From a virus: a stretch of DNA of 25,424 nucleotides. The notes beneath the pieces are model-generated. The model was not told the DNA's origin and did no database searches. It worked only from the letters and a program-made list of their open reading frames with translations. Numbering within the stretch: position 1 is the stretch's first letter; each line of letters starts with the position of its first letter. The translations under genes were made by a program, and so were the position numbers. The DNA is taken from the IMG/VR virus record IMGVR_UViG_3300028133_000027, positions 1 through 25,424 of that record; one strand, 5' to 3'. Of this stretch, positions 764 through 18,687 are shown in pieces.

Positions 764-1467
764 CCACAGCAGAAGAACTAGTAAATGCAGTAGGAAGTAT
801 AGGATTGACAAAAGGTAAATTCACATGTGATTATTGCAAGAAGAGCTTTCAACGTGAAGGCACATTACTAGCTCACAGTTGTGAAAAGAAAAGACGTTGG
901 CAAAGTAAACTTAATCAAGATGTCTTGGTAGGCTTTGCTAGTTATGATTTGTTTTATAGAATTGAAATGCAAAGCAAGCCTAAGGAATACAAGGACTTTG
1001 TTGACAGTCAGTATTATACAGCATTTGTAAAGTTTGGTGCATACTGTTTAAACATACGCTGTATAGATCAAGAAGCATTTACTCGCTGGTTAATTAAAAA
1101 CAAAGCCAAACTCAAAGATTGGCCCACTGATAAAATGTATTTGTTGTTTGTACAGGATCATTGTAAACGTGAAAGTGTAGAACGTGCGCTAGAACGTTTT
1201 GTAGAGCATGCCGCTGAAACAGATTACTTTGCAACATTCTGGGAAAACGCTAGTGGATACTTGATAGCTGAATGGTGTGAAATGGGTAAGATTTCGCCAT
1301 GGATTATGTTGAACAGCAAACGAGCGCAAACAGCATTAAGCAATATGCCAGATGAATGTTTTGCAAGAATAGCAAACAGCATTGATGCAGATCATTGGGG
1401 AAAGAAAACAAAACTTAATCCACATGATGCAAACTTTGTACGGGAGATGATAGATGGGATTACCTGA
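760..1467 (+). CDS. Zinc-finger-containing protein, 235 aa
   Basis: Near the N-terminus is one probable zinc finger of the C2HC type: C23 and C26, a 12-residue linker with aromatic and Leu positions as in classical fingers, then H39 and C41. The remaining 190 residues are mostly helical, with many W, Y and F residues and no motif I recognise. The gene overlaps the previous one by four bases and the next by 14, so it belongs to the same unit as the DnaE-like gene. The finger suggests DNA or protein binding and the gene order suggests replication or recombination, but neither is demonstrated. The finger is clear; the function is unknown. Confidence 0.75.
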   Translation: MTTAEELVNAVGSIGLTKGKFTCDYCKKSFQREGTLLAHSCEKKRRWQSKLNQDVLVGFASYDLFYRIEMQSKPKEYKDFVDSQYYTAFVKFGAYCLNIRCIDQEAFTRWLIKNKAKLKDWPTDKMYLLFVQDHCKRESVERALERFVEHAAETDYFATFWENASGYLIAEWCEMGKISPWIMLNSKRAQTALSNMPDECFARIANSIDADHWGKKTKLNPHDANFVREMIDGIT

Positions 1468-2023
1468 TATCGATATTGACTTTGCAGATAGAAGTCAAGC
1501 ACTAGAATTATTTAAAAATGTACCAGCCAGGCTCAAGAAGAGAAAACACAATACTGGTGTTTATTTTCATAGAGTACCCAGCAATCCATTTACAAATGTG
1601 TGTACAGTTGAACACACACAAGCTGACGATATGGGATTCTTTAAATTGGATCTACTTAATCTAAGCATATACAAAGACGTAAACGATGACGATCATCTAA
1701 AGCAATTAATGGAAAAGGAACCAGTATGGGAACTTCTGGAACACAAAGACTTCGTAGATCAGCTATTTCATCTAAGCGGGCACGACAGTCTATTAAAACA
1801 ATTGAAGCCTACTTCGGTACAGCAATTGGCGGCTACACTGGCAATTATCAGACCAGCCAAACGACATTTACAAGACAAAGGCTGGCAGACAATAATGGAT
1901 CAAGTATGGGTAAAACCCGTAAACGATAACAAGGCTTACTATTTTAAGAAAGCACACGCACTAAGTTATGCTATGGTTGTTATCGTACATATGAATCTCA
2001 TATGTGAACAATTAGGATATTAA
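1454..2023 (+). CDS. Miniature DNA polymerase III alpha (DnaE)-like protein
   Basis: At 189 aa this is far shorter than bacterial DnaE (over 1,100 aa), yet it keeps several DnaE landmarks in the right order. LPDIDIDF at 3-10 matches the palm motif PDFDVDF, whose first two Asp are catalytic in E. coli (D401, D403). FFKLDLLNL at 62-70 matches LVKFDFLGL, which carries the third catalytic Asp (here D66). FHLSGHDSLLKQLKP at 105-119 matches the FQLESRGM segment, followed by an IRPA/FRPG-like piece at 132-135. YFKKAHALSYA at 163-173 matches the GFNKSHSAAYA motif. The PHP domain, beta-binding and OB regions are absent. GGAG seven bases upstream supports the ATG at 1454. Whether it polymerises DNA is unknown; it could be a structural or regulatory relic. 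Confidence 0.75.
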   Translation: MGLPDIDIDFADRSQALELFKNVPARLKKRKHNTGVYFHRVPSNPFTNVCTVEHTQADDMGFFKLDLLNLSIYKDVNDDDHLKQLMEKEPVWELLEHKDFVDQLFHLSGHDSLLKQLKPTSVQQLAATLAIIRPAKRHLQDKGWQTIMDQVWVKPVNDNKAYYFKKAHALSYAMVVIVHMNLICEQLGY

Positions 2024-4993: not shown

Positions 4994-5270
4994 TTACAAC
5001 ATTAGAGATGATGAATTTTACAGACGGGCAGCAAACATGAAACCAATTGGAGTTTATGCAAACTTGGAAGCAGAATGGACACAGAGATTTGCTTGGTGGC
5101 CCAAACGCAGTGACATAACCAATCAACGAATTTGGTTGACAAACTATTGGGAATACGCTATAAAAATGGATAGCCAAGGCGCTGTACCAAAAAAATCCAA
5201 CAGCTGGATTATGATATATACCAGAGAAGAGTATATTACAAAGAAGTTGCAAGGGGAAATTAATGAGTGA
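4938..5270 (+). CDS. Hypothetical protein between primase and helicase, 110 aa
   Basis: A small, basic protein with many Trp, Tyr and Arg residues. The frame opens with GTG at 4938 directly followed by TTG at 4941, and either could be the start. GAGGAG at 4921-4926 lies about 11 bases before the GTG. The gene overlaps the primase end by 56 bases and the helicase start by eight, so it is embedded in the primosome operon and is likely translated together with both. The central segment RRAANMKPIGVYANLEAEW (about 29-47) looks compact and possibly conserved. No known motif is visible. A role as a primase or helicase accessory factor is a guess from position. Confidence 0.7.
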   Translation: MLRHRAQRSKYLRNPVVDDYNIRDDEFYRRAANMKPIGVYANLEAEWTQRFAWWPKRSDITNQRIWLTNYWEYAIKMDSQGAVPKKSNSWIMIYTREEYITKKLQGEINE

Positions 5271-6657
5271 AGATTACAGCGCAGAATTACAACAACTATA
5301 TTTAGAGTTCTTGTTGGCAGACAAGGATCTTTTTGTGCGGTGTAATGCTATCTTAGAAAGCAGTTACTTTGACAGACAGTTCAGAGACACTGTGGACTTT
5401 GTAAAAAAACATGCAGATGAATATCATGATGTTCCCATGTTGGAGCAAGTCAAAGGTGTTGCTGGCATTGAAATAGCTGATGTAAAAGACAAACTAACAA
5501 CAGAACACAAAAACTGGTTTATGGATAACTTTGAACAGTTCTGCAGACACAAAGCACTTGAAGCGGCAATCTTAGCAAGTGCTGATAAACTTGAAAACAA
5601 AGAATATGGTACAGTTGAAGGCATTATCAAAGCCGCAACTGAGATTGGACTTGCTAAAGACTTTGGTACAAACTATTGGGATGATCCTGCTGGACGTATA
5701 CAAAGCATCAAAGACAACAGAGGACAGAACACAACTGGTTGGGAAACATTTGATAGAGTACTGTATGGTGGATTTAATCCAGGAGAACTAAACATCTTTG
5801 CAGGTGGTAGTGGTAGTGGTAAGAGTTTGTTTATGCAGAACTTGGCACTAAACTGGAGTTTGCAAGGCAAGAACGTTGTGTACATCAGTTTAGAACTTAG
5901 TGAAGAACTTTGTGCTATGAGACTGGATGCTATGCTTACAGGCATGAGCACCAAAGACGTTATGAAAAATAGCAGTGATGTTGAACTACGTGTTAAGATG
6001 GCTAGTAAAAAAGCTGGTAGACTACAAGTAATACAAATGAAAAATGGTAGCACTATCAATGATATCAAAGCATATTTGCGAGAATATCAAATACAACACA
6101 ACTTGCATGTGGATGCACTGTTGGTAGATTACTTGGACTTGATGATGCCAATCACAGTTAAAGTAAATCCAAGTGATCAATTTATTAAAGATAAATTTGT
6201 TAGTGAAGAACTACGCAACTTAGCAACTGAACTAGGCATACTGTTTGTAACAGCATCGCAGTTAAACAGAAGTGCAGTTGACGAAATAGAGTTTGACCAT
6301 AGCCATATTGCAGGCGGTATTAGTAAGATCAATACAGCAGATAACTTGATTGGTATCTTTAGCAGTAGAGCTATGCGAGAAAGAGGTAGGGTGCAAATAC
6401 AGTTTATGAAAACACGTAGTAGTAGTGGTGTTGGAAGTAAACTGGATCTCAAGTTCAATATGGACAGTTTGAAAATTGAAGACTTAGATCCAGACGATCA
6501 AGAAGATGAAGGTGCAGTAACCAGCATCTATCAAAAACTAAAAACAAAAAGCAGTGTAGCACCAGCAGGTGAAAGTGTTACAGAGAATAACATGGACGCT
6601 AATCCACAAGTTGATGCTACAGACAGATTAAAAAGTTTATTGAGGAAAAGCGAGTGA
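5263..6657 (+). CDS. 41: Replicative DNA helicase, T4 gp41-like (DnaB family)
   Basis: At 464 aa, close to T4 gp41. The N-terminal half is helical and matches the primase-interacting domain of the family. The RecA-like core carries Walker A GGSGSGKS at 181-188 (K187), an ISLELSEE segment with the probable catalytic Glu, Walker B LLVDYLD at 286-292 (D289), and the Q-containing sensor TASQLNRS at 330-337. The C-terminal 70 residues are acidic and low in complexity. The enzyme is a hexameric 5'-3' helicase that unwinds DNA ahead of the fork and loads primase. GGGGAAA before the ATG supports the start. It overlaps the next gene by four bases. Confidence 0.94.
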   Translation: MSEDYSAELQQLYLEFLLADKDLFVRCNAILESSYFDRQFRDTVDFVKKHADEYHDVPMLEQVKGVAGIEIADVKDKLTTEHKNWFMDNFEQFCRHKALEAAILASADKLENKEYGTVEGIIKAATEIGLAKDFGTNYWDDPAGRIQSIKDNRGQNTTGWETFDRVLYGGFNPGELNIFAGGSGSGKSLFMQNLALNWSLQGKNVVYISLELSEELCAMRLDAMLTGMSTKDVMKNSSDVELRVKMASKKAGRLQVIQMKNGSTINDIKAYLREYQIQHNLHVDALLVDYLDLMMPITVKVNPSDQFIKDKFVSEELRNLATELGILFVTASQLNRSAVDEIEFDHSHIAGGISKINTADNLIGIFSSRAMRERGRVQIQFMKTRSSSGVGSKLDLKFNMDSLKIEDLDPDDQEDEGAVTSIYQKLKTKSSVAPAGESVTENNMDANPQVDATDRLKSLLRKSE

Positions 6658-7076
6658 TCAGATTAGCAACTGAACAAGAATTAGAACACATTAAGAACGA
6701 TCCAGTTAGACCACACATTGGCAAAGAATGGCGCACACGTAGCGGCAGAGAAGTGTATGTGTTGGAACGTGACGGAGAGATTGCTGCATGTATATGTGTA
6801 GCATACATGGACGAAGTGCCTACTAGCGAAACAGATATGAAGTGGGTAGGATTGAATTGTGCAGTATTTTATACTGTATGGAGTTATCAGCGAGGAGCAG
6901 GAAGGGAAATAGTAAATGGAGTAGCAGAGCGAATCAAAAATCAACGGCCTTGGGTTAAAAGATTTGTTACACTAAGTCCGCTAACAGATATGGCAAGGAA
7001 TTTTCATATAAAGAATGGTGCTAGGCTTGTAGCCAAACACAGTACCTGTCAAAACTTTGAGTATGATGTGCGCTGA
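6654..7076 (+). CDS. GNAT-like N-acetyltransferase
   Basis: A 140-aa protein with a GTG start overlapping the helicase stop as GTGA; GAGGAAAA just upstream is the ribosome site. The order fits a GNAT fold: a first strand and helix (residues 1-15), VYVLERDGEIAACICVAY at about 34-51 as the paired central strands, and then the acetyl-CoA loop QRGAGREIV at 79-87, matching the Q/R-x-x-G-x-G/A pattern. TLSPLTDMARNFHIKNGA (106-123) matches the final helix and strand, where the substrate-proximal residues usually lie. It would transfer acetyl groups to an unknown small molecule or protein. Its place at the end of the replication operon does not reveal the substrate. Confidence 0.75.
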   Translation: MIRLATEQELEHIKNDPVRPHIGKEWRTRSGREVYVLERDGEIAACICVAYMDEVPTSETDMKWVGLNCAVFYTVWSYQRGAGREIVNGVAERIKNQRPWVKRFVTLSPLTDMARNFHIKNGARLVAKHSTCQNFEYDVR

Positions 7077-7125
7077 AGCAAAGGTGCAGTCGACCTTATC
7101 TATATCTATTATATGATTCCGAACA

Positions 7126-7189
7126 GCAAACACGGTGTATAAGTTGAGTCATTAATATGAGCCTAGTTGAGCCTGTGTTTTGTGTTTGC
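7126..7189. repeat. Inverted repeat GCAAACAC/GTGTTTGC, 48-base loop
   Basis: The two eight-base arms are perfect complements and enclose the TGAGCCT direct repeats. If transcribed they could close a structured RNA domain. No poly-U follows, so it is not a standard terminator. Confidence 0.4.
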
Positions 7190-7298
7190 ATTGCCATTGA
7201 TGATTTGCTCTTATTTTTAATGGTTGGTCCTATGTTGAGAATCAATTTCTCTGCAACTGCCATAAGTGCTTGTCACCAATGCTCCAGCAACAATATTT

Positions 7299-7306
7299 AC
7301 TAAATA
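7299..7306 (+). promoter_or_regulatory. T4-type late promoter, ACTAAATA
   Basis: Six of eight bases match TATAAATA and the core TAAATA is intact, followed by C as in the stronger copies. The predicted start is 7312, only three bases before the ATG at 7315. It marks the beginning of the late block after the replication genes. Confidence 0.5.
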
Positions 7307-7314
7307 CTACTAAG

Positions 7315-7581
7315 ATGAAGCGTAAAACAAGATCATTATTGGAAGAAATTAATGCTATGTCACCAAAACGTGACAAAAAGCATATTGTTGAGTCAAATGC
7401 ACAACAAGTGATTGTTACAGCGATAAACTTGATCAATTTGATCAATGAAAGTTTTGATGTTGAAACAGCCGCAGATTTAAACAAGCGTTTGATTAACAGC
7501 ATAAGAACCAAAGATCCACGTAAGTTTCAAAGAGGAATTGGTAAAGTAAATGAAGATAGCAGACATACTAGGCGGAACTAA
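7315..7581 (+). CDS. Hypothetical helical protein, 88 aa
   Basis: I chose the ATG at 7315 (MKRKTRSLLEEINAM) over an upstream TTG at 7270 because the late promoter core lies between the two, so the longer form would not be on the late transcript. The protein is strongly helical and charged: basic N-terminus, amphipathic centre (VIVTAINLINLINE) and basic C-terminus. SLLEE near residue 10 also fits the L-x-E cleavage pattern of T4 prohead protease, but such tripeptides are common. It overlaps the nucleotidyltransferase gene by 32 bases in another frame. Function unknown. Confidence 0.65.
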   Translation: MKRKTRSLLEEINAMSPKRDKKHIVESNAQQVIVTAINLINLINESFDVETAADLNKRLINSIRTKDPRKFQRGIGKVNEDSRHTRRN

Positions 7582-8341
7582 GAAACGTAAAAAACGTGGA
7601 AGCCGACTTAAAAGAATAAGACAAAGAAGTTTATTTGATAATGCTCCTATTAAAGAAGGCGGCAATATATTTCCTGATAGTGTGAGCTTTGATCACAAAA
7701 TAATTCCTCAAATTATGAAAACTGTAAACAGTGTATTACAAAAAACTGGCAGTACTGCTATTCCAATTGGAAGCGGCGCAACTCCAACTCCAGGTAAAGT
7801 AAGTGGAGACTTGGATATGATTGTTGATGTAGATCAACTTAAACAACACTTCAATATGGAAGATCAACCAGACAAAGTTATTAGACAAAAGCTACGTCAA
7901 GTATTTGATTTAGCAGGACTTAATACTGGGCAAAGTGGCACCAGTGTACATATCGAAATACCTGTAGGTGACAACACACACCAAGTAGATATTATGGTTG
8001 TACCAAACGCTGATAATGCTGCAAAGTTTCATACACACAGTATTCCACAAGGTTCAAAGTGGAAAGGCGTAAACAAACAGATTGCACTAGCAAATATTGC
8101 TAAGAGCAAAAATATGTTATGGTCACCTTACCAAGGATTATTCAACAGAGATGCTAACGGTAAAAAAGCAGACCTAATAACCAACAACATTGACGAAGTA
8201 GCACGTACACTACTAGGCCCAAATGCCACAGGAAAAGACATTGGCAGTGTGGAGCAGATACTAGCCGCATTGGGTAAAGAAGCAGGCGATGCACTACTTG
8301 CTGATCTTCGCAATGATCCAAATTGGAAAGAACTTGACTAA
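7550..8341 (+). CDS. Nucleotidyltransferase, Pol-beta superfamily fold
   Basis: A 263-aa protein. A very basic tail (residues 11-26, mostly K and R) precedes a nucleotidyltransferase signature: IPIGSGATPTPGKVSGDLDM with G74-S75, then D87-x-D89 in a strand (DLDMIVDV), and a third acidic residue D147 in HQVDIMVV. This G-S...D-x-D...D pattern is the metal-binding site of Pol-beta-type nucleotidyltransferases, which add nucleotides to RNA, DNA, proteins or small molecules. The basic tail suggests nucleic-acid contact. The stop overlaps the ligase-like gene by one base (TAATG), so the two are probably made as a pair. The superfamily call is fairly secure; the substrate is unknown. Confidence 0.72.
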   Translation: MKIADILGGTKKRKKRGSRLKRIRQRSLFDNAPIKEGGNIFPDSVSFDHKIIPQIMKTVNSVLQKTGSTAIPIGSGATPTPGKVSGDLDMIVDVDQLKQHFNMEDQPDKVIRQKLRQVFDLAGLNTGQSGTSVHIEIPVGDNTHQVDIMVVPNADNAAKFHTHSIPQGSKWKGVNKQIALANIAKSKNMLWSPYQGLFNRDANGKKADLITNNIDEVARTLLGPNATGKDIGSVEQILAALGKEAGDALLADLRNDPNWKELD

Positions 8342-9414
8342 TGAGAGCCAATCAGTTTTTAACAGAAGCTACACAAAAAGGTAGAGAGTATAATCACTTA
8401 GAAGATCTAGTTACATTTGAAGGTAGCAAAGGCGCACTCAAAGCCGCAGAGATACTCACACGCCTAGGTCAAGATTCTAAAGATGTCAGCATTAAATGGG
8501 ACGGTAATCCAACATTGTTTTGGGGACGTGAACCAGACGGTCAATTTGTAATGACAGGTAAAAATGGTTGGGGAAAAAATAAATCAACCAGCAGTGGTGC
8601 TCTAGCAGATTTTATTATGAACTCCGGACAAGGAGAAGATTGGCGTAAAGACTTTGCTAGTGACATGGCAGGTGTGTTTGATACGTTGGAAAGAAACACT
8701 CCTGCTGATATGCGTGGATATGTGTACGGAGATTTGCTGTATACACCACGTAAGCCTTTTGCAAAAACAGAACAAGGTATACAGTTTACACCTAACAATG
8801 TTACATACACAGTTGATCCAAATAGTAAACTAGGACAACGCATAGCAAACAGTAGCGTGGGTATTGTTGCACACACATACCATGACGCATTTGGTGATAA
8901 ACAAGGTACACCAATTAAAGATACCAACAGTGTTAACAGCAAGGATGTAGTGGTACTAGGGCAAACCTATGTAACACATCAACCCAAAGTTGATACAAGT
9001 GACGTTCAGGATATAGTTAGTACGGCAAATGCGAACGCACAAATAATAAACAATTGGTTAGCGCCGGAACAGGGACTGAGTAGAAAAGATGCAATACTCT
9101 ATAACTATGTTAACCAAATGACCAAGCAAGGTAAGTTAGACCAACTCAGGACAGGATTTTATGATTGGCTAAAAACCAGCAAAGTCAGCCAAGGACAGCA
9201 AGCAAAACTTATGGCAGGTGACGATAAAGGGTTAGATGCTATACTAGAGCTTGTAGTAAAGATTCAAACAATTAAAAACAATATAATTGACCAATTGGAT
9301 AATGCGGGCAGTGATGTTACAGCAACTACAAAAGGTCAAAAAGGCGGCGAAGGATATGTTGCTACTAGGGATAAAATCAAACTAGTACCACGTCATCGCT
9401 GGACTCCAAATTAA
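8341..9414 (+). CDS. Ligase-like nucleotidyltransferase with capsid-targeting-like N-terminus
   Basis: A 357-aa protein. IKWDGNP at 51-57 matches motif I of ATP-dependent DNA and RNA ligases (K-x-D-G, with K52 as the candidate adenylated Lys). YVYGDLLY at 127-134 could be motif III, with Asp in place of the usual Glu. EGYV at 337-340 and KIKLVP at 345-350 match motifs IV and V. The spacing between motifs I and IV is longer than in small ligases, suggesting an insertion. The first ten residues, MRANQFLTEA, resemble the T4 internal-protein leader MKTYQEFITEA, which targets proteins into the prohead and is cut after the Glu. The gene is coupled to the Pol-beta-like gene. The enzymatic role is inferred and the substrate unknown. 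Confidence 0.65.
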   Translation: MRANQFLTEATQKGREYNHLEDLVTFEGSKGALKAAEILTRLGQDSKDVSIKWDGNPTLFWGREPDGQFVMTGKNGWGKNKSTSSGALADFIMNSGQGEDWRKDFASDMAGVFDTLERNTPADMRGYVYGDLLYTPRKPFAKTEQGIQFTPNNVTYTVDPNSKLGQRIANSSVGIVAHTYHDAFGDKQGTPIKDTNSVNSKDVVVLGQTYVTHQPKVDTSDVQDIVSTANANAQIINNWLAPEQGLSRKDAILYNYVNQMTKQGKLDQLRTGFYDWLKTSKVSQGQQAKLMAGDDKGLDAILELVVKIQTIKNNIIDQLDNAGSDVTATTKGQKGGEGYVATRDKIKLVPRHRWTPN

Positions 9415-11073: not shown

Positions 11074-11367
11074 ATGAACTTAAATGAATTAGATATCAGT
11101 AATGTGGTTGAAGCACAACTAGTATGGGCTCGTAAAGGTCGTAACTTGGTACGCAAGTATCGTTGCACTGTGGGTCAGAGAGCGGGTCGTTTGGTTAGTA
11201 AACCTGGACAGTGTGGTGCTCCCATTGATATTAAAAAACGTTTAACATTAAGAAAAACTAAAAGTCGCATGGGTAAACGTATGGCACGTAAAGCACAGCG
11301 TACTAAAAAGTTTAATCCAGCTAGTAGAGCACTAAAGAGATTAAACAAGCCAGCGAGGAGACGCTAA
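11074..11367 (+). CDS. Small, highly basic protein, 97 aa
   Basis: The protein begins with an acidic/hydrophobic segment (MNLNELDISNVVEA) and becomes very basic: the second half has more than twenty K and R residues and ends PARRR. Two Cys (C31 and C47) flank the turn region. No ribosome site precedes the ATG, which sits where the late transcript should begin. The composition fits a nucleic-acid-binding or DNA-condensing protein made late, possibly packaged with the genome or part of the prohead core. The first residues up to VVEA loosely recall a prohead-protease target. Function unproven. It overlaps the next gene's start by one base. Confidence 0.7.
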   Translation: MNLNELDISNVVEAQLVWARKGRNLVRKYRCTVGQRAGRLVSKPGQCGAPIDIKKRLTLRKTKSRMGKRMARKAQRTKKFNPASRALKRLNKPARRR

Positions 11368-11759
11368 TGAAGATTATGGACATCATACCAGACAAGTATA
11401 CTGAATCAGGTACATGGGAAAAAGATGGAATATTAATGTGTAGCAAAGAATGTTGCGGATCTCCTGTAAGTGAATGTTCATGTGGGCCTGAATGTAAACA
11501 CTGTAACTGTCACGAACTAAACAAAATGAACGAAGCAGGATACGGAATGCAACGAGGTGTTGCAATGAACAGAAAAGTTAATGCAACAAACATTAATCAA
11601 ACCAAACGTGCTAATAATCGTAACGCTGATGCTAACAGAGAATTAAATGTAGCCAATAAAGCATTAACTAGACGTGCTAGCAGGCTGGGCAAGAAAATGG
11701 CAACAGGCATGCCTCAGAGAATACTTAATCCACAACCAGCACAGGATACACAACAATGA
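11367..11759 (+). CDS. Cys-rich putative metal-binding protein, 130 aa
   Basis: The ATG overlaps the upstream TAA by one base (TAATG); GAGGAG eight bases earlier is the ribosome site. Residues 25-49 hold eight Cys and one His (C25, C29, C30, C37, C39, C43, C46, C48, H49), dense enough to bind one or two zinc ions or an iron-sulphur cluster, though the spacing does not match a finger I know. The rest is basic and Asn-rich, with helical repeats of N, R and A (about 66-105) suggesting RNA or DNA contact. It lies next to another very basic protein and is probably made late. Function unknown. Confidence 0.68.
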   Translation: MKIMDIIPDKYTESGTWEKDGILMCSKECCGSPVSECSCGPECKHCNCHELNKMNEAGYGMQRGVAMNRKVNATNINQTKRANNRNADANRELNVANKALTRRASRLGKKMATGMPQRILNPQPAQDTQQ

Positions 11760-12492: not shown

Positions 12493-13578
12493 ATGTATCT
12501 AAACGATTTAAATAGCGCAAAACACAACGTGGAAAAGCTAAATCGTGTACTAGCAGATACTTTCAATCACGAGATTGATTTATCTGAGATGAGCACGAAT
12601 GCATTAAAGCGTATGTTGTCAGCTACAACAGCAAAAATTGACACAATCAAAGAGAGTGATCTCAAGTATTGGGAAAATCCACAGTATAACAAACTTGGAC
12701 TTATCCAACATCAACTTAAAACATATATCAACGAAGTTGCACCAACACGTAAAGATGGTAAAAGAATGAAGACCAAAGAAAGTGTTGTAATGGAAGACGA
12801 GCTAGACACAGCTGAAGTACTTCTTGCTGCAAATGAACTAGTTGATGAACTACAAGGTATGGTAGAAGACGTTGCAGAAATGCAAGTACAAAAACTAATG
12901 CCAATTGTAGACGCAATGAAAGAACAAATTAGTTTTGAAATTGCAGAGCAGTATAATTCATCAGCAGATGCTGCACTTGCCGCTCTACTAGATCAAATGA
13001 AAGCCGCAAAAGAAGCAATGGAAAATGCTACACTTGCAGCTCAAGGTAAACAACCAAACATGACAGCTCCAACAGACATGGGTGCAGATGATGCAGAAAT
13101 GGACATGGATGTAGATGTAGACATGGGCGACGACTTTGAAGCAGATCCAGCAGCCGCAGGCGATGACAATCCAGTAGGCAGAGAACTAAAAGGCGAAAGT
13201 GCTCTAGCTGATATGGAGAAGGGTGCGTTAGCTGAAAAAAAGTATCTAGAGAGTAAGGACAAGCTCTTTAAAATGGTCGAGAGTGGCAAAATGACGCAAG
13301 AACATTTTATCAATATCATTAGCGAACTAGATGAAGGTACACCAAGTGTACGTATTGATCAAACTCCAAGTGAATATGGTAACACTGGCAAAGACTATAG
13401 AACTATGCCGTATAATCCAATGCCAAAACAGTCCCAACAACCAACAAAGCCGGTTAAGAAACTTCCACAAATGACCAAAAAACCAAGAAGTGCAGGCGGC
13501 TTACAAACAATGGAATTGAGACCAGGTGATACAGGACACAGTGCTATGATGAACTTTTTAAAAAGAAAGTCTAACTAG
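12493..13578 (+). CDS. Acidic, helical scaffold-like or virion protein, 361 aa
   Basis: Preceded by a perfect late promoter and the ribosome site AAGGAA. The N-terminal two-thirds is helical with heptad-like stretches. The centre (about 197-225) is very acidic, with DMDVDVDMGDD-type repeats of D, M and A. The C-terminal third is Pro-, Gln- and Lys-rich and probably disordered. This mix of long helices, acidic core and flexible tail is common in prohead core or scaffold proteins and packaged internal proteins of T4-like phages. DLSEM near residue 30 could be a prohead-protease site. No direct family match is recognised, so the role is inferred from composition and late expression. Confidence 0.68.
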   Translation: MYLNDLNSAKHNVEKLNRVLADTFNHEIDLSEMSTNALKRMLSATTAKIDTIKESDLKYWENPQYNKLGLIQHQLKTYINEVAPTRKDGKRMKTKESVVMEDELDTAEVLLAANELVDELQGMVEDVAEMQVQKLMPIVDAMKEQISFEIAEQYNSSADAALAALLDQMKAAKEAMENATLAAQGKQPNMTAPTDMGADDAEMDMDVDVDMGDDFEADPAAAGDDNPVGRELKGESALADMEKGALAEKKYLESKDKLFKMVESGKMTQEHFINIISELDEGTPSVRIDQTPSEYGNTGKDYRTMPYNPMPKQSQQPTKPVKKLPQMTKKPRSAGGLQTMELRPGDTGHSAMMNFLKRKSN

Positions 13579-13892
13579 TGTTAATATACGAAGTTATAGT
13601 AGAGGATCAAAATAATATTTTGAATGACCTAGAAGAATTAATTACTAGGGCAAAAGCCAATGGCAAGTTCAAAATACCAACAAACATGGTACTTGCTAAA
13701 CTTCGTGCTATGGGTCATAGTATTAGTATTCAAGATCTACTAGACCTATTACCTACAATTACTAGTGTGGGAGCCAGCAATAAAAAAGACATCTCACTGG
13801 ATACAGCAATACCCCGTTCCAATGCTGAACCAGATAGTGATGTTGTTAGTAAGTTGGCTAAAAAGCAAATGCAAAAGGATGATGAACTGTGA
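13578..13892 (+). CDS. Small late protein with possible capsid-targeting N-terminus, 104 aa
   Basis: The GTG start at 13578 overlaps the upstream TAG by one base. The first residues, MLIYEVIVED, resemble the T4 capsid-targeting pattern (MKTYQEFIAEA): an aromatic-Glu pair followed by I-x-E, the recognition shape of the gp21 prohead protease. The body is helical with a small domain-like unit (PTNMVLAKLRAMGHSISIQDLLDLLP at about 35-60, divided here by eye) and a charged tail. It overlaps the next gene by four bases (GTGA). It may be an internal or core protein; certainty is low. Confidence 0.65.
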   Translation: MLIYEVIVEDQNNILNDLEELITRAKANGKFKIPTNMVLAKLRAMGHSISIQDLLDLLPTITSVGASNKKDISLDTAIPRSNAEPDSDVVSKLAKKQMQKDDEL

Positions 13893-16380: not shown

Positions 16381-18687
16381 ATGAGCGAAATTCAAGTAAT
16401 CAAACGAAATGGTGGTAAAGATACATTAGATTTAGAAAAGTTACACAAAGTAGTGTTTCATGCATGCAGAGACATTAATGGCGTAAGCCCAAGTGAAGTA
16501 GAGATTAAAAGTAGTTTACAATTTTATAATGGTATCACCAGTAGTGAGATTCAAGAAACGCTTATCAAAAGTGCCGCTGATTTAATTAGCGAAGAAACAC
16601 CTAACTACCAATGGGTAGCAGGAAGACTAATTGTTTATCATCTTCGCAAAATGGTTTATGGCGACTATGATCCGTGGCCATTGCTAGACATCGTAAGACG
16701 TAATGTAGAAGAAGGATGGTATGATCCTGCACTATTAGAAGATTATACACAAGAAGAATGGAACGAATTAAACAACTGTGTAAAGCATGACAGAGATGAA
16801 AACTTTACATATGCCGCTATGGAACAATTCCGTGGCAAATATCTTGTACAAAATCGTGTAACAAATGAAATTAAAGAAACACCGCAAGTAGCATACATGT
16901 TAATTGCAGCAACACTATTTGCAGATTATCCAAAAGAAACACGTATGCGTTGGGTAAAGGAATATTATGATGCAGTTAGCAATTTTTATATCAGTTTGCC
17001 TACTCCTGTTATGGCAGGTGTTAGGACACCTCAGCGACAGTTCAGCAGTTGTGTACTCATTGAAAGTGATGACAGCTTGGATAGCATTAACGCTACTACT
17101 AGCAGCATTGTTAAGTATGTTAGTCAAAAGGCAGGTATTGGCATCGGAGCAGGAAGTATACGGGCTCTCGGATCCCCCATACGTCGAGGTGACGCCTATC
17201 ATACCGGAGTCATCCCATTTTTTAAAATGTTCCAAAGTGCTACAAGGAGTTGTAGCCAGGGTGGTGTGCGAAACGGCGCAGCAACCTTATATTACCCTAT
17301 ATGGCACTATGAAGTAGAAGATCTGCTAGTACTCAAAAACAACAAAGGTACAGAAGAGAATCGTGTACGACAAATGGACTATGGTGTTCAATTCAACAAG
17401 TTGTTTTATGAAAGATTAATTAGTAATGGACAAATTACATTGTTCAGCCCAAGTGATGTTCCAGGTCTATACGAAGCATTTTTTGCAGATCAAGACAAGT
17501 TCAGAGAACTATACGAACGTGCAGAACGCAATACAAAACTACGCAAAAAAACTATTAGTGCAACTGAATTGTTTAGTCAATTTATGGAAGAGCGTAAAAA
17601 CACAGGACGCATCTACTTACAGAATGTAGATAATGCAAATGAACACGGTTCATTTAAACCAGACCTAGCACCAATTAGACAAAGTAACCTATGTGCAGAG
17701 ATCGATTTGCCTACAAAACCGTTAACTGATTTTAACGATGACGAAGGTGAGATCGCACTGTGTACACTAAGTGCTATTAATTGGGGTAACATCAAAAAAC
17801 CAGAAGACTTTGCAAAGCCATGTGAGCTAGCAGTACGTGGGCTTGATGCACTACTCAGCTATCAAAACTATCCAGTTAAAGCGGCAGAACGTGCTACAGC
17901 AGGTAGACGTCCATTGGGTGTAGGTATTATTAACCTTGCGTATTGGATGGCTAAGAATGGTATGACATACAGCGATCCAGACTTAGAAATGATTGATACA
18001 TTTGCAGAGGCGTGGAGTTACTATCTAATTAAAGCAAGTGCAGACCTAGCAGTAGAGCAAGGTGCATGCTTGTGGAACAATGAAACAAAGTACAGTGATG
18101 GTATTACACCTAACCAAACATACAAAACAGATGTAGATGAACTAGTACCACACAAAGAGCGTATGCCTTGGAGAGAGCTAAGAGAACAACTCAAAGCTAC
18201 AGGTATTCGTAACAGTACACTAATGGCTCTTATGCCTGCTGAAACATCAGCACAGATTTCAAATGCTACAAACGGTATTGAGCCGCCACGTAGTTTAGTA
18301 AGTGTTAAACAAAGTAAACACGGCATACTAAAACAAGTTGTGCCTGGCATCCATCATCTTAAAAACAAGTATGAGCTGTTATGGGATCAACGTAGTCCAG
18401 AAGGCTATATGACTATTATGGCTATACTACAAAAGTATATTGATCAAGGTATTAGTGTAAACACAAGTTATAATCCTGTGTTCTATGAAGATGAAAAGAT
18501 TAGTATGAGTGAAATGCTTAGACATTTAATGATCTTTTACAAATACGGCGGTAAGCAATTATACTATTTCAATACATATGATGGTCAAGGCGAAATAGAT
18601 ATTGACAAACTTAACGAACCTGCTAATATAGAGATCGAAGACGAATATCAAATAGAAGACGAAGCCTGCGACAGCTGCACAATTTAA
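16381..18687 (+). CDS. nrdA: Ribonucleotide reductase class Ia, large subunit
   Basis: A 768-aa protein, full length for the family. It starts with an ATP-cone (about residues 4-94, IQVIKRNGGKDTLD onward), the allosteric domain that senses ATP/dATP. The active site carries the redox Cys C224 in FSSCVL, the catalytic set N436-L-C438-A-E440, and the radical-transfer pair Y728-Y729 near the C-terminus. The tail ends C763-D-S-C766, the swinging thiols that are re-reduced by glutaredoxin. It reduces ribonucleotides to deoxyribonucleotides with NrdB and supplies dNTPs for phage DNA synthesis. AAGGA before the ATG is the ribosome site. nrdB follows after nine bases. Confidence 0.97.
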   Translation: MSEIQVIKRNGGKDTLDLEKLHKVVFHACRDINGVSPSEVEIKSSLQFYNGITSSEIQETLIKSAADLISEETPNYQWVAGRLIVYHLRKMVYGDYDPWPLLDIVRRNVEEGWYDPALLEDYTQEEWNELNNCVKHDRDENFTYAAMEQFRGKYLVQNRVTNEIKETPQVAYMLIAATLFADYPKETRMRWVKEYYDAVSNFYISLPTPVMAGVRTPQRQFSSCVLIESDDSLDSINATTSSIVKYVSQKAGIGIGAGSIRALGSPIRRGDAYHTGVIPFFKMFQSATRSCSQGGVRNGAATLYYPIWHYEVEDLLVLKNNKGTEENRVRQMDYGVQFNKLFYERLISNGQITLFSPSDVPGLYEAFFADQDKFRELYERAERNTKLRKKTISATELFSQFMEERKNTGRIYLQNVDNANEHGSFKPDLAPIRQSNLCAEIDLPTKPLTDFNDDEGEIALCTLSAINWGNIKKPEDFAKPCELAVRGLDALLSYQNYPVKAAERATAGRRPLGVGIINLAYWMAKNGMTYSDPDLEMIDTFAEAWSYYLIKASADLAVEQGACLWNNETKYSDGITPNQTYKTDVDELVPHKERMPWRELREQLKATGIRNSTLMALMPAETSAQISNATNGIEPPRSLVSVKQSKHGILKQVVPGIHHLKNKYELLWDQRSPEGYMTIMAILQKYIDQGISVNTSYNPVFYEDEKISMSEMLRHLMIFYKYGGKQLYYFNTYDGQGEIDIDKLNEPANIEIEDEYQIEDEACDSCTI

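Follow-up and report, generated by a model that had tools for sequence, protein, structure and literature searches.

A probable T4-type capsid-targeting leader on an overlapping polymerase-X-like and ligase-type enzyme pair of marine phages

To understand which enzymes a phage may bring into its host, we are interested in N-terminal leaders of the kind that target T4 internal proteins to the head. The question is raised by a 25,424-base fragment, IMG/VR record IMGVR_UViG_3300028133_000027 (the window, meaning the whole stretch analysed), in which a gene with an ATG start (8341-9414, +) encodes a 357-aa protein of the Pfam family DUF6267 (PF19782, E 2.3e-29). The N-terminus of this protein is MRANQFLTEATQKG, and its codons 1-11 (8341-8373) encode MRANQFLTEAT, exactly the interval that an earlier note on this DNA had proposed as a T4-type capsid-targeting sequence on a ligase-like protein. 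Does this peptide direct the protein into the phage head, and what would the protein do after arrival in the cell? We consider it probable that this peptide is a capsid-targeting leader of the T4 type and that it belongs to a packaged pair of enzymes, the DUF6267 protein and a polymerase-like protein encoded immediately upstream.

MRANQFLTE/A is a short N-terminal leader with an L/I-x-E end, as judged from its sequence (a slash marks a predicted cut). The predicted leader MRANQFLTE (8341..8367, +) would be cut after Glu9 and before Ala10, and the core, a ligase-type nucleotidyltransferase-like protein (8368..9414, +), has the predicted mature start ATQKG. The same site, which the earlier note suggested looking for in homologues, is kept in 79 of 79 close homologues that reach the N-terminus; this first set comprised 80, one of which (L048) is cut by a contig end. 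Most of them follow M[RK]Axx[FIL]L[TA]E[AS], and six (L012-L016, L056) have a Cys-rich insert that splits an FLKE- or FLAE-type part from LTEA. The insert in these six forms a Cys-rich knuckle of the WVCGKCxSDPCxCE type inside the leader. Only A3, L7 and E9 are invariant among 14 aligned relatives, and M1, L7 and E9 among 19 relatives reaching down to 34% identity. The leaders are very diverse in a second set of 80 more distant DUF6267 loci (MKITDIVGSKKRKPR..., MKVRDILGAGLERRFRGPRKPR..., 97 residues in L532, the short form MKALEFIIE), so that their length ranges from 9 to nearly 100 residues across the homologues. A separate arrangement was observed in L193 (record G029), where DUF6267 follows, in one fused protein, a large N-terminal region that starts MRITEVDTPVTQPQLDALEKVLDRVF, and VMEAEGKNTHLEHLED stands at the junction.

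Over both homologue sets (158 of 160 loci usable, Val allowed at P3), 78 of the 80 distinct 20-mers that immediately precede the core contain [LIV]-x-E, compared with 127 of 1325 internal 20-mers. With A, G, S, D, N or E as the next residue, the motif occurs in 72/80 pre-core and 33/1325 internal 20-mers; a narrower earlier count with [LI] gave 64/68 versus 74/1116 internal. Because the sequences are related by descent, these counts are not independent trials. The AlphaFold model of the DUF6267 protein has a mean predicted local distance difference test (pLDDT) score of 86, and residues 1-14 are its sole segment below 50.

How closely does this N-terminus resemble the leaders of T4? The N-terminal propeptides of T4 IPI, IPII, IPIII and Alt are cut by gp21 (PMC9026906, PMC5694885), which cleaves after L/I-X-E; packaging needs no more than the first 10 residues of IPIII, and propeptides comprise 10-19 residues in internal proteins and 7-65 for virion proteins generally (PMC9026906). 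In the T4 genome (NC_000866), with cut marks set by the L/I-X-E rule, ipII and ipIII both start MKTYQEFIAE/A, ipI starts MKTFKEFTSTTTPVSTITEA with the cut region ...STITE/A, gp24 reads MAKINELLRE/S and gp22 MLKEQLIAE/A. The T4 sequence quoted in the earlier note, MKTYQEFITEA, is one letter off the actual MKTYQEFIAEA. As for the T4 targeting positions 4 (Tyr) and 7 (Phe), Phe6 of the window protein aligns to Phe7 with one gap, and position 4 is Asn, which is variable in homologues.

Of the 40 open reading frames (ORFs) called in the window, it is the DUF6267 gene whose N-terminus scores best against MKTYQEFIAEA. Judged by 3333 internal 12-mers that start with Met, such a score has a chance of 0.0018 per ORF, which is only suggestive when allowing for 40 ORFs. 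The window alone would hence fit a chance resemblance of one N-terminus to a T4 leader: the leader pattern is not enriched there (1/40 N-termini versus 1/382 internal segments, p 0.18). Two wider counts also speak against a leader system, since HTVC008M shows no genome-wide leader enrichment (0/184) and the clade only a weak one at N-termini (best p 0.012). The leader is nevertheless more than chance because it is conserved among homologues; with the site kept across 158 loci and present in the neighbouring gene, coincidence is very improbable. The top score versus the T4 leader among all records belongs to MKSYTEYLTEA of record G042, in a protein that adjoins the terminase gene and matches a PHROG family annotated 'internal head protein' (E 0.0011) as well as a virion structural PHROG, which its counterpart in G001 also matches.

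The leader is detachable. Ten of the other DUF6267 records examined have none, the protein beginning directly with its core: P-TIM40, S-SZBM1, S-PM2, AG-345-P14, Syn1, S-CRM01, P-HM1, S-RSM4, S-SM1 and the record of L391. Four have a leader: DLP_6 (MMKFTQFLAE/S), HTVC008M (MYNDLLVE/D), Melnitz-1 (INFSKYITE/D after the start) and the record of L392 (MLTLKFFLTE/A). A leader required in every DUF6267 member is rejected by the ten leaderless records, which tell against packaging through this family and make the leader an optional add-on. Disorder at residues 1-14 and the leaderless homologues show that the leader can be detached from the folded part. It also recurs on unrelated proteins within a phage, as seen in the polymerase-like neighbour and, in relatives, in terminase-side proteins.

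The polymerase-like neighbour is encoded by an ORF (7550-8341, +) whose stop codon TAA shares 1 base with the ATG of the DUF6267 gene. It has no Pfam match, and a profile search returned nothing convincing, so that we place it as polymerase-like from its predicted fold. The model (pLDDT 84.5) falls below 50 at residues 8-17 and 24-37 and has an ordered core from near residue 38; it matches DNA polymerase lambda in Foldseek at E 9.3e-9 and polymerase beta with Z 12.3 over 181 residues. The palm/thumb core (7658..8341, +) contains GSGATPTPGKxSGDLDMIVD and the third aspartate D147, and D87, D89 and D147 are invariant in the 17 rows of the alignment. GSxxxG..SGDxD is the signature of family X DNA polymerases, and the protein thus has the signature, the third catalytic Asp and the palm/thumb fold of that family.

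This second protein has a predicted long basic leader of its own (7550..7657, +), with PIKE at its end followed by GGN. Its leader varies from about 5 to 44 residues and ends in [LIVF]-x-E/GG in 35 of 36 distinct forms (89 loci); nine further loci outside this count include four cut by contig ends and five ending HLAEGG, HLNEGG, SLHEGG or HLSEGG. Among the 74 loci of the first set with enough upstream sequence, the polymerase-like core ends at most 150 bases from DUF6267 in 71 and about 425 in the other three, and in the second set a polymerase-like match lies near DUF6267 in 20/73. No adjoining polymerase-like gene was detected in G028, G042 and about a quarter of the second set, where the DUF6267 protein itself bears a basic leader of the MKI.DI..G.KKRK type; many other DUF6267 proteins of the second set have a different, Arg-rich leader. 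As the polymerase-type leader appears on DUF6267 where the polymerase-like gene is undetected, the simplest reading of these sequences is that the leader may move as a module between genes at this place.

What kind of enzyme is the DUF6267 core? K52-W-D-G (motif I with the predicted nucleotidylated lysine, 8494..8505, +), E337-G-Y-V (motif IV, 9349..9360, +) and the lysine K347 (motif V, 9379..9381, +) do not vary across the aligned relatives (37 of 37) and follow one another as motifs I, IV and V do in ligases. This invariance bears out the ligase-type motifs proposed earlier, and by these motifs the protein belongs with the ligase-type covalent nucleotidyltransferases; the structure comparison lends weaker support. 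With Foldseek, the model found no PDB match at E 0.001, which counts against the assignment. After realignment of the best 1000 Foldseek chains, nucleic-acid ligases occupied 49 of the 50 rows listed (47 by title and two chains of a non-homologous end-joining complex by the same residue range as ligase IV) at Z 4.4-5.9, the sole other row being ATP citrate lyase. Since a Z below 8 may reflect a common arrangement, the motif evidence matters for the ligase assignment, and the model is favourable to, but not decisive for, a nucleotidyltransferase fold. Scans with Pfam and PHROG found no function beyond the family itself, and a profile search of the PDB found no solved DUF6267 relative, the one chain listed (E 0.085) being taken as chance.

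The top realigned structures are RNA ligases, namely Trl1 (Z 5.9), T4 RNA ligase 2 (Rnl2, Z 5.6) and Naegleria Rnl, in the range of Z 5.2-5.9. They suggest another role, in which the protein is packaged and trimmed and acts in RNA repair, sealing and extending tRNA or mRNA cleaved by host RNases; phage RNA ligases together with nucleotidyltransferases have been discussed as tRNA repair (PMC9503650). However, DNA ligases follow close behind at nearly equal Z, so the fold cannot tell the substrate, and the top matches of the partner protein are the DNA polymerases beta and lambda. We regard RNA repair as on the unlikely side, and DNA gap repair as a possible role that we put forward tentatively.

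Are leaders of this kind found on proteins known to be in virions? The virion table of cyanophage S-CREM2 comprises 52 proteins (PMC10665884). A basic residue together with [FY][LI]xE by residue 16 occurs in 4 of these 52 proteins detected by mass spectrometry (MS) and in 0 of the 167 others (p 0.0029), the four being an S-adenosylmethionine (SAM) hydrolase, an APH-like kinase, a small protein and a cytidylyltransferase. This was one of four patterns tried (p 0.029, 0.06, 0.0029 and 0.036, uncorrected), which were chosen after the protein list had been inspected, with elements from T4, the window and P-TIM40. MS-detected Cas9 of S-CREM2 has LRFASFMAE/A slightly further in, and a Cas9 with such a capsid-targeting-like leader would be an injected nuclease. 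In S-CREM2 (L107/L108, OR473000) the MS-detected SAM hydrolase, Cas9, small protein, APH-like kinase and cytidylyltransferase, listed as gp6, gp12, gp13, gp14 and gp154, have an F-[LM]-x-E leader at or near the start.

The cytidylyltransferase/NMNAT-type enzyme is leadered in 4 of 4 phages checked in which it was detected in the virion by MS: S-SM1 (MKKFSAFLNE/A; PMC3037559), S-SZBM1 (MRFRQFIIE/A; Table 1 of PMC9146016), S-CREM2 (MKNFSSFLTE/A; PMC10665884) and S-SCSM1 (MKSFLQFLKE/A; PMC9602691). It has no leader in Syn1, P-HM1 and S-RSM4. NMNAT, SAM hydrolase, kinase and Cas9 have been reported in cyanophage virions (PMC10665884, PMC9602691). These published detections concern protein presence, and leader removal is not addressed by those data. 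With the conserved L-x-E at a junction of variable length, the modelled disorder, a leader type common to two unrelated neighbouring enzymes and the same kind of leader on MS-detected virion proteins, we consider the leader reading well supported.

Several results weigh against packaging of the DUF6267 protein. The pattern requiring Ala, Gly or Ser after Glu is not enriched in the S-CREM2 virion (1/52 versus 2/167), nor is its looser form (3/52 versus 15/167). DUF6267 is unnamed in the S-CREM2 and S-SZBM1 virion tables, of which S-CREM2 was not checked for encoding one, and the open-access literature searched contains no report of DUF6267 in a virion. In S-SZBM1 the leaderless DUF6267 protein (tag 141) is missing from the 30 virion proteins listed as detected in PMC9146016; its leadered neighbour (tag 140) was detected there, with only 2 peptides. 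The DUF6267 gene is also surrounded by replication genes.

The remaining points against packaging concern the prohead protease. The earlier note suggested looking for a gp21-like protease elsewhere in the genome; none was matched in the clade fragments searched, where portal and capsid went unmatched too. PF03420 gave 0/20 in clade records, with the control genomes silent as well. A two-row protease profile, run with no positive control, had no match in 18 records (DUF6267 lies in 3 of the other 17), and PF03420 with three working controls, applied to 16 further records, found none in the DUF6267-bearing G042, G047 and G050; G042 is a record of 204 kb with a leadered DUF6267. A tblastn search with the protease in six records returned no match, and portal and major capsid queries were unmatched there too. 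Walks past the contig ends stopped short of the head genes, and on one side of the clade map the contigs enter tail-fibre-like genes. As portal and capsid are unmatched and the contigs run into tail-fibre-like genes, the absence of the protease is weak evidence, which we still count against packaging. Peptidase S77 is present in all three complete, named genomes searched that carry a leadered DUF6267 (HTVC008M, DLP_6 and Melnitz-1), and also in S-CREM2, T4 and G062, the last picked through an S77 search. A gp21 scan of viral contigs gave 80 loci, and a distant DUF6267 was found in 2 of 16 of their records tested.

Could the N-terminal peptide instead serve in the cytoplasm? It may be a docking or regulatory tail for partners such as the replisome, with L-x-E as part of the interface and the enzymes acting late and unpackaged. 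The gene lies between a helicase-like gene (5263..6657, +) and a ribonucleotide reductase large-subunit-like (nrdA-like) gene (16381..18687, +), both assigned by eye from translation, the former by its P-loop; several cyanophage DUF6267 proteins are leaderless, and no protease was located in clade records, the 204 kb of G042 included. A docking tail is less easily reconciled with leaders whose length and composition vary widely with the junction alone kept, and with the same leader kind on unrelated enzymes detected in virions. The counterpart in S-SCSM1 of the interval between the two flanking genes also speaks against it, since seven of the ORFs there carry a virion-protein annotation; the 45 kb of S-SCSM1 examined revealed no DUF6267. 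On balance we consider a docking tail unlikely.

We therefore return to a capsid-targeting leader and to the course that it would imply. During prohead assembly, the leader would bind the internal core, and capsid targeting by it is likely. Next, cutting by a gp21-like serine protease after Glu9 (L-T-E/A) would free the enzyme inside the head; cleavage and packaging into the head each appear rather likely. The freed enzyme would be ejected with the DNA, and such injection is somewhat favoured. The upstream polymerase-like protein, the gene of which overlaps and is probably translationally coupled with the DUF6267 gene, would be handled alike, with its longer basic leader ending in I-K-E/G. The cargo would be a polymerase-beta-type gap-filling enzyme and a ligase-type enzyme, which might fill and seal gaps of the incoming genome before phage gene expression, most simply as a repair kit, or alternatively mend RNA cut by host defences. 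Taken as a whole, that widely sampled marine T4-like phages load an overlapping polymerase-X/ligase pair via swappable leaders and inject it as a gap-filling and sealing kit before phage gene expression is a speculative proposal, and we would not expect all of it to hold.

The gene order of the window is found in other phages. In P-TIM40, S-SZBM1 and HTVC008M the DUF6267 gene is flanked by helicase and ribonucleotide reductase genes and lies near a cytidylyltransferase gene, and the window has the same frame, with the helicase-like gene at 5263 and the nrdA-like gene at 16381 as the two ends of the syntenic interval. The S-PM2 annotation lists the DUF6267 gene as T4-like gene cluster 71 and its neighbour as cluster 190. 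In an annotated phage collection, 83 records have DUF6267 homologues, and the names of 74 identify them as cyanophages. Within the interval of the window, one protein (12493..13578, +) matches a PHROG annotated as virion structural protein (phrog_14154, E 7.2e-18). Three further proteins are possible, weak leader bearers: a small basic protein (11074..11367, +; MNLNELDISNVVEAQ), a protein starting MKIMDIIPDKYTES (11367..11759, +), whose relatives start MKIFDIITED or MKIMDIISES, and a protein starting MLIYEVIVED (13578..13892, +), with MLVNEVIITEG in one relative.

Other observations were made along the way. A 189-aa protein of the window (1454-2023) matches a PHROG annotated 'DNA polymerase' (phrog_11778, E 2.9e-60) and has a weak, below-cut-off resemblance to the Pol III alpha finger. 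In L194 (4145-6076), a C-terminal stretch of about 60 residues is common to many phage contigs up to about 355 kb, often at 80-98% identity. A P-loop kinase of zeta-toxin/AAA_33 type, the Pfam call being made on the G001 copy, has a variable N-terminus ending [LIV]xE/G directly before a conserved NDP-type core, e.g., MKINEVINQPLEE/GPNDP; its copies lie in G001 (65624-66319), G004 (44476-45159), G022 (71904-72593), G028 (46391-47074), G042 (116664-117353) and HTVC008M (gp129). In G022, at 7279-8127 and 6105-7223, a protein with a weak PARP-like match (E 0.0047, below cut-off) starts MKAFEIINER, and its neighbour has a clear head domain of the poly(A)-polymerase/CCA type; the PARP-like protein may be another injected effector.

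Packaging by a targeting leader is known, and the new part is the cargo. Neither a packaged phage polymerase/ligase pair nor any paper on DUF6267, a family named as of unknown function, was found in the open-access literature searched. The T4 targeting leader has been described chiefly in a few coliphage proteins, and its grammar could help predict from sequence which marine phage proteins ride in the head; here it points to a polymerase/ligase pair and not to an inhibitor. If loaded and injected, the pair would mean that a phage brings its own nucleic-acid repair enzymes into the cell. Phages of the sunlit ocean could then repair genomes that reach the cell damaged or cut, and what DUF6267 does would become directly testable. 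By analogy, African swine fever virus carries its own polymerase X and ligase.

How do the cargo enzymes and their leaders compare with known systems? Like T4 Rnl2, Trl1 and DNA ligase I, the DUF6267 core has motifs I, IV and V in order and a ligase-like structural alignment; unlike them, it has about 10% identity to these enzymes, no sequence match in the PDB, and, between the motifs, a region of mainly helices (about residues 219-321). The upstream protein shares SGDLD, the third Asp and the palm/thumb fold with polymerases beta and lambda, but aligns only to about residue 129 or 142 to 335 of polymerase beta. As it has no N-terminal 8-kDa lyase/DNA-binding domain, we call it polymerase-X-like only; some family X members are without this domain. 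The virion enzymes of cyanophages come from related T4-like phages, and several have a start of the M-K-x-F-x-x-F-L-x-E type (PMC10665884, PMC9146016, PMC9602691, PMC3037559); unlike these MS-detected enzymes, DUF6267 is absent from the two virion lists read. The T4 internal proteins are injected inhibitors of type IV restriction (PMC12373910). In the window the cargo would be ligase-type and polymerase-beta-type enzymes, with packaging predicted from sequence, and the leader has 9 residues compared with 10 in IPII and IPIII, becoming much longer and Arg-rich in some relatives. As in the T4 internal proteins and Alt, the leader is short, with a basic start, hydrophobic or aromatic residues and L/I-x-E followed by a small residue, and it is modular on otherwise unrelated proteins.

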